A stretch of 34,364 nt of DNA from a virus, in IMG/VR virus record IMGVR_UViG_3300035698_013823, positions 1 through 34,364 of that record. One strand, given 5' to 3'. This document shows positions 18,823 to 32,329 of this stretch, piece after piece. Position 1 is the first letter of the stretch. Each line of letters opens with the position of its first letter. The notes beneath the pieces are model-generated. The model was not told the DNA's origin and searched no databases. It worked only from the letters and a program-made list of their open reading frames with translations. Made by a program: the position numbers and the translations under genes.

Positions 18823-18938
18823 AATTTATTTTAATCATCGGCTTGTTGTTGCTGCTGGCAACCGTAGGAAGTAGGGCAATAATGAACGTAATATTGTTCT
18901 TCATAAATATTTACAACGAAGCAAGAGGTAATAAATGA
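18816..18938 (+). CDS. Small membrane protein (40 aa)
   Basis: GGAGG lies four bases before ATG 18816 inside the end of the preceding gene, and the TGA at 18936-18938 overlaps the next ATG. The product MLEFILIIGLLLLLATVGS... is one strong transmembrane segment followed by a second weaker hydrophobic stretch (IMNVILFFINIY) and a short basic end. Coupling on both sides supports it as real. Confidence 0.65.
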   Translation: MLEFILIIGLLLLLATVGSRAIMNVILFFINIYNEARGNK

Positions 18939-19555
18939 CGCCTAATCCACTATACAACAGTCCGTGCAGTAACCTATTGTTTACACAGACTAGGGCGGTT
19001 GATCCGCTTGATCCAGAGAGTTTTGTGCCAGACCTAGCGGAAATAATGCACGCTTTGCCTAACATCAATCGTTATAACGGCCACACCACTAGACCTTACA
19101 GCGTAGCGGAACACTCAATCAATTGCATGTTTGCCGGCATGTTTAATTACGGTTTTTACAAGCCGCACCACAAACTGTTCTTCTTATTGCACGACGCGGC
19201 AGAAGCCTACCTCCAGGATATTGTAAGACCACTAAAAAGGTTTATGTCAGACGATATATTGCTTGCGGAGAAGGTAATCACCGGTAGAGTTTTGGACCTA
19301 TTACCCTTTACAGAGGAACAGAGAGACGAGCTATATAGTCAAAGTTTCACTTTAGCTTCTGACGATATAGATACTCGAATGGCTGTTACAGAGATTGTTC
19401 AGCTTCTACCAAATCATAAAAATCCATTACCAGGATTCGAACCATACACGATGTCCTTGTATCCTCCGGGATTGCACTGCACGATAAGCGTATTGTTTAA
19501 GTCGCACATAGCACAAGAAACAGAAAACTTAAAAAAGGTAAAAAATGGCTATTGA
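18935..19555 (+). CDS. HD-domain phosphohydrolase (5'-deoxynucleotidase-like)
   Basis: The 206-residue product shows the HD signature: His60 in RPYSVAEHS, His86-Asp87 with Glu90 in LLHDAAEAYL, and a later acidic Asp-Asp-Ile-Asp around 143-146. The QDIVRPLKR segment after the HD pair is typical of phage and YfbR-like enzymes that dephosphorylate deoxynucleoside monophosphates. It may adjust nucleotide pools alongside the dCMP-modifying enzyme at 29216. AGAGGT precedes the ATG. Confidence 0.85.
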   Translation: MTPNPLYNSPCSNLLFTQTRAVDPLDPESFVPDLAEIMHALPNINRYNGHTTRPYSVAEHSINCMFAGMFNYGFYKPHHKLFFLLHDAAEAYLQDIVRPLKRFMSDDILLAEKVITGRVLDLLPFTEEQRDELYSQSFTLASDDIDTRMAVTEIVQLLPNHKNPLPGFEPYTMSLYPPGLHCTISVLFKSHIAQETENLKKVKNGY

Positions 19556-25019: not shown

Positions 25020-25642
25020 TCACAACTTCTATTTTGGATTCTTACGCATGGTACCGTAAATGTCCTCCAAATTGGCGCAAAAACGCGTACTCTTCGCTCG
25101 TTTCTACGATTCGAAGGGAGAAGTATACGCCGCACAAAACGGCGCAGAGAGGGATAGACTTCGAGGACGCAATATATCGAAGCGCTGTAGGAAGCGCTGG
25201 AGCGGGCTCAGAAAAATTCAACCATGTTGTAGAAAAGGTAAAGCGTGGACGATACCAAGTAACGCTAAAGAAAAACATAGAAGTAGAAGGAAGAAACATA
25301 TTGCTATTTGGTAAAGCTGATGTCGTTTTCAAGAATAGGATTGTAGACATAAAGACTACTGAAAACTACCGTGGAGACGACAAGTATCTTTCTGGCTGGC
25401 AACACAAGCTTTATTTGCTGATGTCGGAGCTTTACGATTTTAAGTATCTTGTCACGTTGTTTGACAAATTTCCTAGCAATACGATAATAGGCACATACGA
25501 AGTGGACTACTATAACACAAACCATCAAGAGCTGTTAGAAGATGTTAAAGCTGGGATATGGGACTTTTATGAATGGCTTATGTCGGAAGAGCTTTTTTAT
25601 GATTATGAGACAATATTCTCCAATTCACGGAGAAAACGTTGA
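24989..25642 (+). CDS. PD-(D/E)XK nuclease (RecB/Cas4-like)
   Basis: The 217-residue product shows a Glu59 motif (RGIDFEDA), Asp111 in FGKADVVF, Asp120 and Lys122 in IVDIKTTE, and Gln138 in SGWQHKLYL, the RecB-family pattern. AGGAG lies eight bases before the ATG. It probably acts on DNA ends in replication or recombination. It has no visible 4Cys iron-sulfur cluster of the Cas4 kind. The stop overlaps the primase TTG start (TTGA). Confidence 0.88.
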   Translation: MSSQEQPTLLITTSILDSYAWYRKCPPNWRKNAYSSLVSTIRREKYTPHKTAQRGIDFEDAIYRSAVGSAGAGSEKFNHVVEKVKRGRYQVTLKKNIEVEGRNILLFGKADVVFKNRIVDIKTTENYRGDDKYLSGWQHKLYLLMSELYDFKYLVTLFDKFPSNTIIGTYEVDYYNTNHQELLEDVKAGIWDFYEWLMSEELFYDYETIFSNSRRKR

Positions 25643-27225
25643 TTTCATCTAAAGCTTTTGTGACAGATTTCCTAAACTTGTTCAGAGGAAATTTAGTATC
25701 TCACGGCGTGCATTACCCTGAGACAGTTACAAAAGAAGGAGAGAAGGCTCCAGGCAAAAGTTCAGTTGTGCATGAAGAAGTTACTGAAGAGATTGTTGCG
25801 AAACACTTGCACGGGAAGCAGGGTCTTGGAATCATACCAATCAATCATAAGAATTGCGTCAATTTTTCTGTAATTGATGTAGACGTTTACCCAGCTAATC
25901 CAAAGAAATACATTGCAATACTAAGAAGAGCAAATGTTCCAGCCATATGTTTCAGAAGTAAAAGCGGTGGGCTGCACATATTTATGTTCTTCTCCGATGA
26001 ACCAGAAGCATCTAAGATCCGCCCGTCACTAATGAAGCTTGTAGGGATGCTAGGGTTACCAAAGACTGTAGAAGTGTTTCCAAAGCAAACAATGCTGGAA
26101 GAAGGTAAGACTGGCAACTGGATTAATCTACCTTACTTCAATGCCGCTAAGACAGAACGATATGCTTACAATTCTAACGGCGAAGAGCTAAACCTTAAAG
26201 ACGCTATGATAATGATCAAAGGCGTGCAACAACCGTACAAGCAGTTTATAGCTTCAATAAACAACGCACCCCTAGCACAAGGCCCGCCATGTCTTCAAAC
26301 AATATTTCTAAATGGTGGCGCACCAGAAGGCGACAGGAACCATTATTTATTTAATTGCGCCGGTTACCTAAAGGCAAGGTACAAGGAAGATTACGAAGAG
26401 CATCTGCACCACTTGAACGAATCTATGGATGCTCCGATAGACTACGCAAGAATAAACAAAACTATCATATCGTCTCATAATAAAAGCAATTACGCGTACA
26501 ATTGCAAGTCTCCAGTATTGGCAGCATTCTGCGAAAGAGAAGAGTGCAGCACAAGAGAGTACGGCGTAACCAGCGACAATGTTACTTCTTTAAATTTTGG
26601 CGAACTTGTTGTCTATGATTCGTCAGAGCCTTACTACGAATGGGAAATTAACGGAAAGATCCTAAGGTTTGAAGACGCGAGAGCATTGGAGAACCAAGCC
26701 ACCTTCAGAACCATGTGCTTGAAAGAGCTGCACCTACCGCAGCACCGGATGAAAGACGCCAAGTGGGTAGAGGTGCTTAAGTGCGCTATGGACAATATTG
26801 TATCTAAAGAGGCGTCGAGAGACGATATATCTGAAGACAATATTTGGCTGTACAAGGTAGAGAATTTTTGTAGAGACAATCACACGCCTAATATTGCAGA
26901 AGTCCACGACGGTAAAGTATATTGCTCAGACACAGAGATAATATTTAAGTCTATGGAGCTGGCAGAACATTTATCTGATACAAGAGCGTTTTCTAGTTTT
27001 ACTACAAAGCGTCACAACGATATGTTAAAGAAGATTCTTGGAGGACAATTTCTAAATATATCCAGGAAAGGCTTTAAGGGCAGAGTAGTTGTGCTTGACG
27101 CCATTAAGCTGAGACGAAAAGGACTGATAACCGACATAAGAGATAAGCGTTCATACTTGAAAGAAGTACAGAACGAAGGGAAAAGCCCAATAGAGTACCT
27201 ATCGGAGCATAAAGCAAAATTTTAA
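25639..27225 (+). CDS. Archaeo-eukaryotic-type primase (PrimPol-like)
   Basis: The start is a TTG at 25639 with GGAG seven bases upstream, giving 528 residues. The catalytic core has Asp80 and Asp82 (VIDVDVYP), SKSGGLHIFMF with His113, and VEVFPKQ near 143-149. A metal-binding set follows: Cys218 in PPCLQ, then Cys289, Cys298 and Cys303. A C-terminal domain from about residue 330 to 500 is repeated in the next gene. It should prime DNA synthesis, with the helicases nearby. Confidence 0.88.
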   Translation: MISSKAFVTDFLNLFRGNLVSHGVHYPETVTKEGEKAPGKSSVVHEEVTEEIVAKHLHGKQGLGIIPINHKNCVNFSVIDVDVYPANPKKYIAILRRANVPAICFRSKSGGLHIFMFFSDEPEASKIRPSLMKLVGMLGLPKTVEVFPKQTMLEEGKTGNWINLPYFNAAKTERYAYNSNGEELNLKDAMIMIKGVQQPYKQFIASINNAPLAQGPPCLQTIFLNGGAPEGDRNHYLFNCAGYLKARYKEDYEEHLHHLNESMDAPIDYARINKTIISSHNKSNYAYNCKSPVLAAFCEREECSTREYGVTSDNVTSLNFGELVVYDSSEPYYEWEINGKILRFEDARALENQATFRTMCLKELHLPQHRMKDAKWVEVLKCAMDNIVSKEASRDDISEDNIWLYKVENFCRDNHTPNIAEVHDGKVYCSDTEIIFKSMELAEHLSDTRAFSSFTTKRHNDMLKKILGGQFLNISRKGFKGRVVVLDAIKLRRKGLITDIRDKRSYLKEVQNEGKSPIEYLSEHKAKF

Positions 27226-27237
27226 TAGGAGCATGTT

Positions 27238-27831
27238 ATGTTATTACGAAGAGTAAGCGAAGTATTATTTGGCGAGTTGCAAAAGCGTTATGGAAAAACG
27301 GTAAGCTATGTTTGGTTTGTTGAGGGAAAGAAGTTGAAGTTCAACACCACAAGGCACGTAATGAGTCAGCGAAAGTTCAAAGAAAAGTTCTTAGAGGTGC
27401 ATGGAGAAGCGCTAATAAGTGTGTCGGCCGAGGCTTGGACAATGATACTTAATAAGGCGTTTTCAGAAAACACTGTTGCGATAGAAACGTTGGAAGAAAT
27501 ATGGCTAAAGCAAGTAGCTTTGTACTGCAACGAAAACATAAGCGAAAACCAACTCGACATTGCTGAAGGTGGCGTTTACGCAACCAACACTGGACTTTTG
27601 TTTACGTCTGCCGGTCTTGCAAAGCATTTTAAAAACGCAGAGGAATTGCCGCACTTCACTCCTGAGTGGCACAACGAAAAGCTGTTAGAACTGCTGTGCG
27701 CCAAGTCTGCGTCGGTTACGTTAAAAGACTTCAAAGGAAGAGCGCTGAAAATAAACAACTTCTCTTGCCGAGTAGACGAACGTTTTTACAACTACTACAA
27801 AGCGTATAAAAATCATGCCGAAGCCGCGTAA
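27238..27831 (+). CDS. Stand-alone paralogue of the primase C-terminal domain (197 aa)
   Basis: This protein aligns with residues about 330-500 of the upstream primase: YVWFVEGKKLKF with YEWEINGKILRF, DIAEGGVYATNTGLLF with EVHDGKVYCSDTEIIF, and SVTLKDFKGRALKI with NISRKGFKGRVVVL. It lacks the catalytic Asp pair and the cysteines. It begins 13 bases after the primase with AGGAG upstream, so the two are coexpressed. It may load the primase or bind template DNA. Confidence 0.85.
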   Translation: MLLRRVSEVLFGELQKRYGKTVSYVWFVEGKKLKFNTTRHVMSQRKFKEKFLEVHGEALISVSAEAWTMILNKAFSENTVAIETLEEIWLKQVALYCNENISENQLDIAEGGVYATNTGLLFTSAGLAKHFKNAEELPHFTPEWHNEKLLELLCAKSASVTLKDFKGRALKINNFSCRVDERFYNYYKAYKNHAEAA

Positions 27832-29206
27832 GACAACAGTCTTTGGCCCACCAGGGACGGGTAAGACGACGCACATACTTAAGTGCCTAGAAAAAGACTT
27901 CAACACATATTTGCCTAGTGAGATTGCTTTTGTCTCTTTTACTAATCAAGGCGTGAACGAAGGCAAGCTTAGAGCTATGTCGCAATTTGGACTAAAAGCA
28001 AAGCAATTGCCTTATTTTGGAACAATTCATTCTCTTTGCTTCAAAGCGCTTAATATGGACAGATTGAACATAATAAGCAAAAGTCATTACCGATTGTTTT
28101 CAGAGAAGACTGGTATAAATTTCTGCGGTCATTACACAGAAGATTATTCTTCTCCAAACGACGCATACTTACACGCCGTAGAGATGAAAGCGCAGAACAT
28201 AGAAGCGTACCATCGCATGAAGCACGACCTGAACTTGAGCGAGTACCAATACGACTTCATTGAGTCAGAGATTGCCAACATGAAAAGGCAATTGAATCTA
28301 AAAGACTTCACTGACATTCTCATAGATTATGTTGCTTTTGGAGAACCTATTCCAGTTAAAATTGCTTACATTGACGAAGCGCAAGACTTGACCAAGTTGC
28401 AATGGAATGTCATAGAGAAAATGTTCAAAGAGTCAGAACAAATAATTGTAGCCGGAGACGACGACCAAGCTGTGTACGAATGGGCAGGAGCAGACGTCAG
28501 TAAGTTTATTGAGTTTTCTGACAATAAGGTTCTACTTGATCAAAGCTATAGAATGCCTATAGTGGTTCATGCGATAGCCAGGAACATAATTTGTGATCTA
28601 AGCGTCAGACAAGAGAAACGTCTTCTTCCTAAGAATGAGGAAGGTGTTTTTGAGGTAAAGAAGAGTCTCCAAGATGTCGAGCTTGTTGGTGGAGAGTTGA
28701 TATTGGCAAGAACCAAATACATTCTAAGAGAATTGTCAAACGAGCTTATGAATGAAGGATTCCTGTTCTCGTTTAAAGGGAAGAGCAGCATAGACCACAA
28801 TGTGTTTAACGCAATAATTGCTTACATAAAATTTACCAAAGGTGAGATTGAATATCTAGCGCCGATACATAAAGCTATGTTTGATGTAGTGCATAAGGAC
28901 GCCTATTGGTACGACGCGCTAAAACAAAGCAACGCAATAAGAAAATACTACAGGAGGCTTATTGACACAAAGAAATATACGCTTAAGACAATAGAGCTGG
29001 AAACGTTTCACGGGAGCAAAGGTGCTGAGAACAGTCACGTAATACTTGCAACAGATACGTCCAAAAGGGTTGAAGCCATGAGGTCGATATACCCTGACAT
29101 GGAATTAAGATGTCTGTTTGTAGGCGTAACTAGATCAAGCAATAAGCTCACCGTACTGCAACCAACCAGGAAGCATCACTGCCCAATGCACTACTTAACT
29201 TTATAG
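27815..29206 (+). CDS. Superfamily 1A helicase (UvrD/Rep-like)
   Basis: The 463-residue enzyme has FGPPGTGKTT (motif I, 10-19), DEAQ (187-190, motif II), GDDDQAVYEWAGA (motif III, 214-226), SYRMP (motif IV), TFHGSKGAE (motif V) and FVGVTRS (motif VI). It is compact for the family, lacking large 2B insertions. It probably unwinds the replication fork or acts with the nearby nucleases. It overlaps the primase paralogue by 17 bases. Confidence 0.93.
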   Translation: MPKPRKTTVFGPPGTGKTTHILKCLEKDFNTYLPSEIAFVSFTNQGVNEGKLRAMSQFGLKAKQLPYFGTIHSLCFKALNMDRLNIISKSHYRLFSEKTGINFCGHYTEDYSSPNDAYLHAVEMKAQNIEAYHRMKHDLNLSEYQYDFIESEIANMKRQLNLKDFTDILIDYVAFGEPIPVKIAYIDEAQDLTKLQWNVIEKMFKESEQIIVAGDDDQAVYEWAGADVSKFIEFSDNKVLLDQSYRMPIVVHAIARNIICDLSVRQEKRLLPKNEEGVFEVKKSLQDVELVGGELILARTKYILRELSNELMNEGFLFSFKGKSSIDHNVFNAIIAYIKFTKGEIEYLAPIHKAMFDVVHKDAYWYDALKQSNAIRKYYRRLIDTKKYTLKTIELETFHGSKGAENSHVILATDTSKRVEAMRSIYPDMELRCLFVGVTRSSNKLTVLQPTRKHHCPMHYLTL

Positions 29207-29215
29207 GAGAACCTT

Positions 29216-30421
29216 ATGAAAACAACATCAGAAAGCTTCGACGTTATTTATAAAGAGCTAATATACGAACTTATTAACAAAGGCGATAAAAGTGTGTCAA
29301 GAAAAGGAAAGAAGCTGACAGAGCTTCACGATAAGATGTTTATGTTGACAAAACCAAGACAGTGTATGGCAACGTGTAGAAACATGTCGCTTGACTATCT
29401 TATAAACGAATTTGCGCTCTATATGTCAGGCTCTCCGCTACTTGAGGACGCACTGAAGTGCAGCTCCTTTTGGAAAAATTGCACAGACGACGGAATAACT
29501 GTTAATAGCAACTACGGCAAGCTCTTGTTTCACGACAAAAACGAAAAGGGTTTTACGCAATTCGAGCACGCATTAAACTGCCTAAAGAACAGCCGAGGAA
29601 GCAAGAAAGCTGTAATGACGATATACGACAAAGAAAACGCGTACATGTCCAACGACAATCCTTGCACTATGTATCTTAAGGCTAGGATAGACGAAGAAAT
29701 GAACTTGCATCTCATTGCAGTAATGCGGTCGAGCGACATTTATTATGGGCTGCCTTACGATGTCCCGTTCTTCGTATTCGTACAGCTAGCGTTGATTGAT
29801 CAATTAAAAAATAAGTACCCAGATTTAAAAGTCGGAACCTATACGCACATGGCCAACTCGCTGCATTATTACGGTTACAAGGAAGAAGAATTAAAGCAAG
29901 CATTTGAAAAAGGAACAACTGTAGACGAAATTATTTCTTACCATGACGCGTTTAACGAGATTGTTAATAAGTGTCTTCCTGGAGTCAACAGACTGTGCGG
30001 CAATGAAAACTTTATGGCACTTGCTTGGGAAGCATCGACGTACTCAGACTGCCTTAAGAAGCGGGTAGGCGCTTGTTTTACGTTGACAGAAAACGAAGTA
30101 GAGACAAGCATAATGGCTGCTCACGGCGGCGTTGCTTCTCACAGAGCAATTTGCACACATTGCGCTAGAGAAAACCAACTAGACAATTGGTATGGCGACG
30201 AATGTCCATCGATACACAGTGAGATGAGAGCAATTAATCGAATCAGGCTTGCAGGACTGAACCCCGATTGGAGCAAAGTTACCGTCTATCTTACTCACGG
30301 TCCTTGTGACGCGTGTTGTAAGCTCATGGATATGGTTGGGATAAAGAAGGTGTTCTTTGAAGTGCCTTACAAAACCAACTACGCGCACTGGCCGGAGATG
30401 ACGATAACGCAGATAAAATAA
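29216..30421 (+). CDS. Fused thymidylate synthase-fold enzyme (probable dCMP hydroxymethylase) and dCMP deaminase
   Basis: The N-terminal half has the thymidylate synthase fold: Cys150 in NPCTMYL as active-site candidate, MRSSDIYYGLPYD, and GTYTHMANSLHYY. Asp182 in GLPYD occupies the place of the Asn that selects dUMP in thymidylate synthase; Asp there marks dCMP enzymes such as T4 dCMP hydroxymethylase. The C-terminal part has the zinc deaminase motifs His334-Ser-Glu336 and PCDAC (Cys364, Cys367). One 401-residue chain thus joins two dCMP enzymes. Modified cytosine or uracil in phage DNA is inferred. Confidence 0.87.
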   Translation: MKTTSESFDVIYKELIYELINKGDKSVSRKGKKLTELHDKMFMLTKPRQCMATCRNMSLDYLINEFALYMSGSPLLEDALKCSSFWKNCTDDGITVNSNYGKLLFHDKNEKGFTQFEHALNCLKNSRGSKKAVMTIYDKENAYMSNDNPCTMYLKARIDEEMNLHLIAVMRSSDIYYGLPYDVPFFVFVQLALIDQLKNKYPDLKVGTYTHMANSLHYYGYKEEELKQAFEKGTTVDEIISYHDAFNEIVNKCLPGVNRLCGNENFMALAWEASTYSDCLKKRVGACFTLTENEVETSIMAAHGGVASHRAICTHCARENQLDNWYGDECPSIHSEMRAINRIRLAGLNPDWSKVTVYLTHGPCDACCKLMDMVGIKKVFFEVPYKTNYAHWPEMTITQIK

Positions 30422-30493: not shown

Positions 30494-32329
30494 ATGAAAG
30501 TGCCATCAGATAACGCAATGACTGCAATGAGCCGTGCTGACATATTATGCGTAGATATTGAAAGCAAAGATCCTCAACTAACAGACAAAGGGCCAGGCAC
30601 ACATAGAGGAGATGGCTACGTTTGCGGTGTTGGGTTTGGTGCAAACACAGACGGCGTTGAGTATTCTTACTATCTTGACATAGCCCATCCTGACACAACG
30701 CCTGACGTAAAGGAAAGAAATAATAAGATGATTTCAGCACTATTGGAATCTCCTTCAGCAAAGCTAGGCGCCAATATTATTTACGACTTGGAATGGTTGT
30801 TGCATTCTGGTTACAAAATAAACATGGACACCGTACACGACGTCCAATACGCTGAGCCTTTATTAGACGAATACAGAAGGTCTTATTCATTGTCTACTCT
30901 GGCCAAGATACACACAAGTGAACAAAAGCGCAATGACGTTCTTGAAGACTACAATAGTATGATGAATTGGAAAGGCCGTGCAATAGCCAATCTATGGAAG
31001 ATGCCAGCTTCAGTTGTAGAGACTTACGCACTGGCTGATGTTACGCTGCCGTTGGAGATATTTTCCAAACAAAAGTCACAATTAGAAATTGAAGGATTGT
31101 ACGACCTGTATACATTGGAGACAGAATTAATCCCCGCGTTGCTGGATATGCGAAAAAACGGCGTAAAAATCGACCAAGAACGCTTCAAAAAGACGATTTT
31201 TCAATTTTCCGAGCAAAAGTATACGCTCCAGAAAAAACTCGAAAAATGGGCAGGGGATGGCGTAAATTTTAACTCCAGCGCGCAACTCGCTAAAGTTTTT
31301 GATTCTTACAATATGCCGTATCCAAGACGAGCACCTACGGAGCTAATGAGTAAAGCTGGTAAAGTAGGTAATCCTCAGTTGGATAAGAAAGCCTTAAGTA
31401 AGATGTTGGGCGAGTATCCCATATGTCAAACAATATTGGAATATCGACATGCAGATACAATGATTGGTATGTTCCTGCACCCGTACTTAGACTTTATGAC
31501 CAATGGTAGATTGTACGGAACGTTCCACCCATTGCGCTCAGATGATTATGGAACTGTTGCTGGAAGGTTTTCCGCCAGTCGGCCTAACTTGCAACAAGTT
31601 TCTGCAATAGACGAGGATGATGACGACGGAGGACTGCAAGGACAAGCATTAAGGCAATTGTTTATTCCGGAAGACGGCAAGGACTGGGCAAAGTTAGACT
31701 ACTCGCAGGTCGAGTATCGCATCATGGCACACTATGCCGAAGGACCTGATGCAAGAGTATTGAGAGACAGGTACAACAACGATCCTCGTACAGATCTACA
31801 CCAAGTAATTTGCGACGCTACTGGCTTTGATAGACGCACAGCAAAGCGTTTGAATTTTGGCGGTGCTTATGGAATGGGCCCAACAACTGCCTCTGATACG
31901 TTTGGATGGACAATGGAAGAAGCAGACGTATTTATGGCAAGTTACCATCAGGCTGCTCCTTATGTTAAGAAATTAAGAAACGCTGTATCTAGCGCTGCTG
32001 CCAGGAGAGGGCATATACTTACAGTTCTTGGTAGAAAGGCAAGGACGCACCCTAGTAGAAAACTACATTCTATGTTCAATCGTCTTATTCAAGGCTCGGC
32101 AGCAGACGTAATGAAAAAGGCGATTGTTGATGCTAGCAAGAAAGGATTGTTTAACGAGTTAACGTTGCACATGACAGTGCATGACGAATTAGATGTATCT
32201 GTTGGTCGAGACAAGGCAAGCTTGGAAGCATTAGACGAGTTGAAAGAAGCTATGGAAAACGCTATAAAATTTGACGTGCCTTTGTTAGTTGATTGTCACA
32301 TTGGAACTAACTGGGCGGAGGCGGACTAA
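30494..32329 (+). CDS. DNA polymerase, family A with 3'-5' exonuclease
   Basis: The 611-residue enzyme has the proofreading motifs DIE (Asp21, Glu23), GANIIYD (Asn94, Asp98) and YALAD (Tyr178, Asp182), followed by the polymerase: DYSQVEYR (Asp402, Glu407; motif A), RRTAKRLNFGGAYG (motif B, Phe455) and VHDE (His563, Asp564, Glu565; motif C). There is no 5' nuclease domain. It should be the phage replicase. AGGGAG precedes the ATG and the stop overlaps the next start. Confidence 0.95.
   Translation: MKVPSDNAMTAMSRADILCVDIESKDPQLTDKGPGTHRGDGYVCGVGFGANTDGVEYSYYLDIAHPDTTPDVKERNNKMISALLESPSAKLGANIIYDLEWLLHSGYKINMDTVHDVQYAEPLLDEYRRSYSLSTLAKIHTSEQKRNDVLEDYNSMMNWKGRAIANLWKMPASVVETYALADVTLPLEIFSKQKSQLEIEGLYDLYTLETELIPALLDMRKNGVKIDQERFKKTIFQFSEQKYTLQKKLEKWAGDGVNFNSSAQLAKVFDSYNMPYPRRAPTELMSKAGKVGNPQLDKKALSKMLGEYPICQTILEYRHADTMIGMFLHPYLDFMTNGRLYGTFHPLRSDDYGTVAGRFSASRPNLQQVSAIDEDDDDGGLQGQALRQLFIPEDGKDWAKLDYSQVEYRIMAHYAEGPDARVLRDRYNNDPRTDLHQVICDATGFDRRTAKRLNFGGAYGMGPTTASDTFGWTMEEADVFMASYHQAAPYVKKLRNAVSSAAARRGHILTVLGRKARTHPSRKLHSMFNRLIQGSAADVMKKAIVDASKKGLFNELTLHMTVHDELDVSVGRDKASLEALDELKEAMENAIKFDVPLLVDCHIGTNWAEAD

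Follow-up and report, generated by a model that had tools for sequence, protein, structure and literature searches.

We describe a phage protein in which a thymidylate-synthase-fold domain, strongly predicted to be a dCMP hydroxymethylase that makes 5-hydroxymethyl-dCMP (5hm-dCMP) from dCMP, is joined in a single chain to a zinc deaminase domain of the CMP/dCMP type. Our best explanation, to which we give a probability of about 0.45, is that it acts as one bifunctional enzyme with two steps in series, from dCMP to 5hm-dCMP and on to 5-hydroxymethyl-dUMP (5hm-dUMP), which would then appear as 5-hydroxymethyluracil (hmU) in DNA. Modified pyrimidines of phages arise by hydroxymethylation of dCMP (T4) or of dUMP (SPO1, phiW-14). 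A fusion of a dCMP-type hydroxymethylase with a deaminase would represent either the branch point of T4 hard-wired in one chain, or a third route, to hmU through hydroxymethylcytosine (hmC) nucleotides. The functions of the two domains are well predicted from sequence; for the role in the pathway, the branch point is a less probable but close rival of the series order. That the protein provides a further route to hmU DNA, with hydroxymethylation at the cytosine stage and then 5hm-dCMP deamination in one polypeptide, not through dUMP hydroxymethylation, is proposed tentatively, and less firmly than the series order itself.

The fused gene and its relatives

The window, which is the whole stretch of DNA analyzed (34,364 bases), is an IMG/VR virus record and by gene content a tailed phage. 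Its left part carries tape measure, major capsid and terminase genes. The rightward replication arm carries ligase, SNF2 helicase, AEP primase and UvrD helicase genes, the fused ORF and a family A polymerase gene. The record is probably incomplete and some genes are likely missing; in the related record G001, the primase gene is split across the record ends, which suggests a complete record. The primase of the window (25639-27225) is of the AEP-TOTE type with a PriCT_1 domain. The next protein, at 27238-27831, matches no family; its L016 equivalent shares a BLAST cluster with the primase. The features discussed below are the following.

18935..19555, + strand: HD-domain YfbR-like 5'-deoxynucleotidase-type phosphohydrolase, 206 aa
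27815..29206, + strand: UvrD/Rep-type helicase, conserved upstream neighbor of the fused ORF
29216..30421, stop included, + strand: predicted fused dCMP hydroxymethylase - CMP/dCMP-type deaminase, 401 aa, single uninterrupted frame
29216..29920, + strand: thymidylate-synthase-fold hydroxymethylase domain (predicted), residues 1-235; PF00303 and structural matches of the AF2 model
29507..29515, + strand: Ser98-Asn-Tyr100, equivalent to Ser94/Tyr96 of T4 dCMP hydroxymethylase (dCH) and Pro92/Tyr94 in ThyA
29603..29608, + strand: Lys130-Lys131, at the site where ThyA has its phosphate-binding Arg pair (Arg126/127)
29654..29668, + strand: Asp147 ... Cys150-Thr151, putative water-activating Asp at Cys-3, catalytic Cys, and Thr for ThyA His147
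29759..29761, + strand: Asp182, equivalent to ThyA Asn177 and T4 dCH Asp179, predicted cytosine recognition
29921..30004, + strand: joining helix, about residues 236-263 (AF2 helix 236-260), site of the gene junction in unfused relatives
30005..30418, + strand: zinc deaminase domain, residues 264-401; His334, Glu336, Cys364, Cys367, with extra Cys313-x2-Cys316 and Cys330
30494..32329, + strand: family A DNA polymerase (PolA), conserved neighbor of the hydroxymethylase/deaminase pair

The fused ORF begins with ATG, just 3' of an AGGAGA ribosome-binding site at 29205-29210. A preliminary description of this DNA had proposed a single chain combining hydroxymethylase-type and dCMP deaminase-type domains, and this was borne out: both lie in the one frame 29216-30421 and match Pfam families above the curated cut-offs, Thymidylat_synt (PF00303) over residues 12-232 (E 7e-19) and dCMP_cyt_deam_1 over residues 264-381 (E 6e-12). 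Among PDB sequences, the first half matches MilA and T4 dCMP hydroxymethylase and the second half dCMP deaminases, the latter at E 3e-15 in a profile search. Both zinc CMP/dCMP deaminase motifs, HxE and PCxxC, are present. The AF2 model of the fused protein has a mean pLDDT of 91 and a pTM of 0.74, and at this monomer pTM the placement of the two domains is uncertain. Compared with known structures, its first domain is most similar to MilA (5JNH; Z 24.9), and it also matches T4 gp42 (T4 dCH, 6a9a; Z 22.3).

A scan of viral contigs with the single protein gave no matches; when a three-sequence alignment served as query, 67 relatives were retrieved from IMG/VR. The same fusion occurs as a single frame in L016 (60% identity), L017 (51%) and L018 (52%), and UniProt A0A8S5MQL3 in BFVD is a full-length fused homologue (40% identity over 404 columns). 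In a maximum-likelihood tree of the hydroxymethylase domain, the four fused proteins form one clade (support 100/99). Its sister group consists of five phages (L019-L023) in which the two genes lie next to each other, with an overlap of a few bases or a gap of at most a few. The order of primase, UvrD helicase, hydroxymethylase, deaminase and PolA is largely conserved around the pair. All four fused proteins, like the nearest unfused relatives, keep the deaminase zinc ligands and catalytic Glu (His334, Glu336, Cys364, Cys367). A sequencing or assembly error is ruled out, as the fusion is common to four divergent contigs and one database protein; it is genuine and conserved in a small phage clade. 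The only match from bacterial or archaeal genomes, L113 in a Thermoplasmata MAG, has unfused genes and is probably a mis-binned phage contig. In the open-access literature, we found no paper on a thymidylate synthase-deaminase fusion.

Other fusions were seen among the relatives. A thymidylate-kinase-like domain is fused ahead of a dCMP-type hydroxymethylase in L052:5494-6807 and L054:3509-4822, which are candidate single-chain 5hm-dCMP synthase-kinases and provide a parallel for fusion to the next enzyme. A TAGT glycosyltransferase domain is fused ahead of a dCMP-type hydroxymethylase in L039:4969-6819, and L041 seems to have a close copy of it in which the start is cut off. Since hydroxymethylases in L052, L054 and L039 are thus repeatedly joined to pathway neighbors, the deaminase fusion appears to be one of several such solutions. 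The deaminase in L025:6870-7541 has a C-terminal match to a MazG-like nucleoside triphosphate pyrophosphohydrolase (phrog_2245, E 7e-8).

Active site and substrate of the hydroxymethylase domain

From the ternary complex of T4 dCH, a signature for hydroxymethylation was proposed that consists of an Asp at Cys-3, a Ser two residues before the active-site Tyr, an Asp at the Asn177 position and the lack of a C-terminal tail (PMC6400193). By alignment, the full T4 gp42 signature is found in the fused protein (Asp147/Cys150, Ser98/Tyr100 and Asp182), with the deaminase domain standing where ThyA has its C-terminal tail. E. coli ThyA has Leu143, Pro92 and Asn177 at the signature sites. The residue set of methylating ThyA (Leu143, His147, Asn177 and the closing C-terminal tail) was looked for in the fused protein and is absent. 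In the MetaGPA study, positions 147 and 177 separated thymidylate synthases of cytosine-modified phage contigs from others, position 177 being mostly Asp in the modified ones (PMC8670742). The fused protein has Thr and Asp at these positions, the identical pair to T4 gp42. SPO1 gp29, a dUMP hydroxymethylase, keeps the Asp at Cys-3. It has Asn at both 147 and 177, as do all 13 sampled isolates that carry PF18723; neither Asn is found in the fused protein (Thr151, Asp182). The prediction of a dCMP hydroxymethylase is made because the complete T4 gp42 signature is present, because ThyA lacks it, and because the SPO1 type differs at Asn177. The preliminary description had taken Asp182, placed at the Asn of thymidylate synthase, to point to dCMP. 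Asp182 does align with Asn177 of ThyA and Asp179 of T4 gp42, and a dCMP substrate together with hydroxymethylation is now well supported by the whole signature beyond this one residue.

The Lys-Lys pair at 130-131 is found in the fused clade and also in L019-L024, the relatives closest to it. MilA has one Lys of this kind and prefers CMP, and its A176S substitution alone shifts the preference towards dCMP. Lys130 would therefore permit a MilA-like CMP substrate, but Ser172 is the dCMP-type residue and CMP is not favored.

Several other chemistries were considered for the first domain. Hydroxymethylation could follow deamination, with dCMP converted to dUMP by the second domain and dUMP then modified by the first, an order known for phiW-14. 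M6-like phages, which have a dCMP deaminase as well, are expected to use it too. Such an order is unlikely here, as Asp182 and Thr151 stand where SPO1 and the 13 PF18723-bearing isolates have Asn and Asn. A methylating enzyme that supplies thymidylate, from dCMP through 5-methyl-dCMP to dTMP, has a precedent in an Asn177Asp thymidylate synthase that methylates dCMP (PMC8670742), and Asp177 occurs together with Leu at Cys-3 in S28C10 and ctXG1253. However, Asp147 at Cys-3 and Ser98 are tied to hydroxylation by the T4 dCH study (PMC6400193), and the fused protein lacks a ThyA-like tail. We consider methylation very unlikely, and the plain thymidylate synthase-deaminase channel offered as an alternative in the preliminary description is likewise disfavored, the Leu/Pro/Asn set of methylating ThyA being absent. 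A flavin-dependent dCMP hydroxylase of the RB69/AfhB type, yielding 5-hydroxy-dCMP, would share the same fold (9iqc and 9iqu match the AF2 model at Z 22-23). RB69 ORF048, with no Trp at W86, Thr at 98 and Asn at 174, lacks the equivalents of Trp (W86), Ser98 and Asp174, all three of which are kept in the fused protein, and this chemistry is the least probable of those considered. As a separate observation, L003:7749-8507 (phage S28C10) and L006:5001-5816 (ctXG1253), with Asp at 177 and Leu at Cys-3, are candidate dCMP methylases; a deaminase gene is adjacent to the former and near the latter.

Gene complement and the order of the two steps

Gene neighborhoods were compared with HMMs that counted proteins of any size. 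Where no deaminase neighbors the hydroxymethylase, a nearby nucleotide kinase was found in 27 of 33 loci, several of which also have a beta-glucosyltransferase. In a second group, with an adjacent deaminase, 14 of 23 loci have a kinase and 14 of 23 have MazG/PRA-PH, several of the loci being truncated. The group with kinase and MazG fits the logic of T4, in which dCTP is converted to dCMP, and dCMP either to 5hm-dCMP and its diphosphate or to dUMP. In the lineage of the window, no kinase and no MazG gene was found near the gene (0/12 loci each), the two absences amounting to about one evolutionary event, so that the values from Fisher tests do not count as independent evidence. The lineage records scanned, including the apparently complete G001, yielded no small P-loop protein of the nucleotide-kinase kind, and 11 lineage records yielded no thymidylate-kinase match. 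Local HMMs found no phage-encoded dCTPase/MazG or 5hm-dCMP kinase in the window or its relatives, except for the MazG-like C-terminus in L025. An initial count in which a neighboring deaminase seemed to exclude a kinase (1/34 versus 20/33) was partly an artifact of a 300-aa size limit and was discarded. Many phages with adjacent pairs have a kinase of ~320 aa directly upstream, and the kinase is wholly absent only in the lineage of the window.

The YfbR-like HD nucleotidase is found in 10 of 11 lineage records, in 4 of 13 PF18723-bearing isolates and in none of six hmC-type or cytosine-modifying comparison phages (T4, RB69, VPE25, ATCCB, Xp15 and S28C10), where the hmU or hmC class follows published chemistry for T4, SPO1 and the M6- and ViI-like phages and gene content for the rest. 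In PAE1 it is located just downstream of the dUMP hydroxymethylase, and three Abidjanvirus phages also have it a short way downstream. In the window, it is a possible partner that would hydrolyze a competing nucleotide. PF18723 is carried by seven unfused relatives, and 11 of the 13 sampled PF18723 isolates have an hmU DNA kinase match, seven of them above the cut-off. The 5hmdU DNA kinase PF18748 and the transferase PF18724 are absent from the window and ten relatives; PAE1 matched both and Goe26 matched PF18748. PF18723, named 5-hmdU DNA kinase, helical domain, was withdrawn as proof of hmU chemistry, as the protein has no P-loop and PF18748 is absent. Given the absence of PF18748 and PF18724, the PF18723 protein of the relatives may have a role other than on hmU. 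TAGT glycosyltransferases, which are known from hmC pathways, are also encoded by the unfused relatives; in the fused clade, PF18723 and TAGT are both absent. A variable cluster adjoins the hydroxymethylase in L019:2449-5311 and its equivalents in L020-L023; it encodes one or more TAGT proteins, a stand-alone PF18723 helical protein lacking the kinase that usually goes with it and in some phages radical SAM proteins, and is possibly an undescribed hypermodification system.

In gene content, the lineage of the window resembles hmU phages by its accessory genes and hmC phages by its hydroxymethylase, two features that would fit together if the attached domain deaminated 5hm-dCMP. The N-terminal domain would hydroxymethylate dCMP with methylene-tetrahydrofolate and water, and the C-terminal zinc domain would deaminate 5hm-dCMP to 5hm-dUMP. 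Through host thymidylate kinase, 5hm-dUMP could then reach the triphosphate and enter DNA as a substitute for T. Such chemistry has precedents: 5hm-dCMP is deaminated to 5hm-dUMP by the human dCMP deaminase, and phosphorylation of 5hm-dUMP by thymidylate kinase has been reported (PMC10305735). The dCMP hydroxymethylase and the intact deaminase site are read from sequence signatures, and the series order and hmU DNA from comparative genomics only. We favor the series order because the lineage is without kinase and MazG, has the YfbR-like nucleotidase and, in unfused relatives, PF18723, which accompanies Asn177 enzymes in 13 of 13 isolates.

The close rival is a T4-type branch point, in which both domains draw on dCMP, one for 5hm-dCMP and hmC in DNA, the other for dUMP and dTMP; the fusion would fix the ratio of the two products, with no flow between the sites. 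We regard this reading as quite possible, though less so than the series order. T4 uses gp42 and dCMP deaminase in such a way, many distant relatives have MazG, kinase, hydroxymethylase and deaminase together, and thymidylate synthase, deaminase and PRA-PH domains occur together in cytosine-modified contigs (PMC8670742). The latter also weighs against the series order, as dCMP deaminase there accompanies cytosine-modifying genes. So do the lack in all 11 records of PF18748, the actual hmU DNA kinase domain, and of PF18724, the TAGT genes of the unfused relatives, the absence of both PF18723 and TAGT from the fused clade, and the variation of host kinases, one of which could accept 5hm-dCMP. 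The MazG-like C-terminus of the L025 deaminase also fits the branch point. On the other hand, the branch point has to account for a lineage that has no 5hm-dCMP kinase, has MazG only as that extension, and has a nucleotidase absent from the six comparison phages. For the route to 5hm-dUMP suggested in the preliminary description, comparative genomics thus leans in its favor through the missing kinase and MazG and the hmU-like gene set, with the branch point still close behind.

If correct, the series order would hold 5hm-dCMP back from the dCTP pool and avoid competition with the host for dUMP. The fused protein would be a single-chain enzyme for 5hm-dUMP from dCMP. The recognition of hmU phages from sequence would change, as the Asp177 rule for calling cytosine modification would fail for such phages.

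Comparison with known systems

T4 gp42 (1B5E, 6A9A) shares with the first domain the fold, the catalytic Cys, the Asp at Cys-3, Ser-x-Tyr, the Asp179 position and the lack of the ThyA C-terminal tail. It differs in being unfused, in its low identity (about 20%) and in having an Arg pair in place of Lys130-Lys131. In T4, the kinase, the dCTPase and the deaminase are each encoded by a gene of their own. The CMP 5-hydroxymethylase MilA (5JNH) is the best structural match (Z 24.9) and has a Lys at the Lys133 position, but it has Ala176 where the fused protein has the dCMP-favoring Ser172, and it is not fused to a deaminase. The dUMP hydroxymethylases of SPO1 (gp29) and M6-like phages share the Asp at Cys-3, and M6-like phages also have a YfbR-like nucleotidase, PolA and dCMP deaminase; these enzymes differ in Asn at 147 and 177, in the dUMP substrate and in separate genes. 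The dCMP deaminases T4 cd (1VQ2), S-TIM5 (4P9C) and 2HVV share the HxE and PCxxC zinc site and the dCMP/CMP deaminase family with the second domain, which in our protein is the C-terminal domain of a hydroxymethylase and has the additional Cys-x2-Cys and Cys330. The Xp15 gp36-gp35 and S28C10 ThyA/dCMP deaminase pairs have an Asp177-type thymidylate-synthase-family gene adjoining a deaminase gene. The genes are separate, however, and occur together with kinase and MazG-like genes; a carbamoyltransferase is also present in Xp15, and the S28C10 enzyme lacks the Asp at Cys-3. A0A8S5MQL3 (Myoviridae sp. ctOAa14), a database entry of metagenomic origin whose name mentions only the deaminase domain, has the same two domains over its full length at 40% identity.
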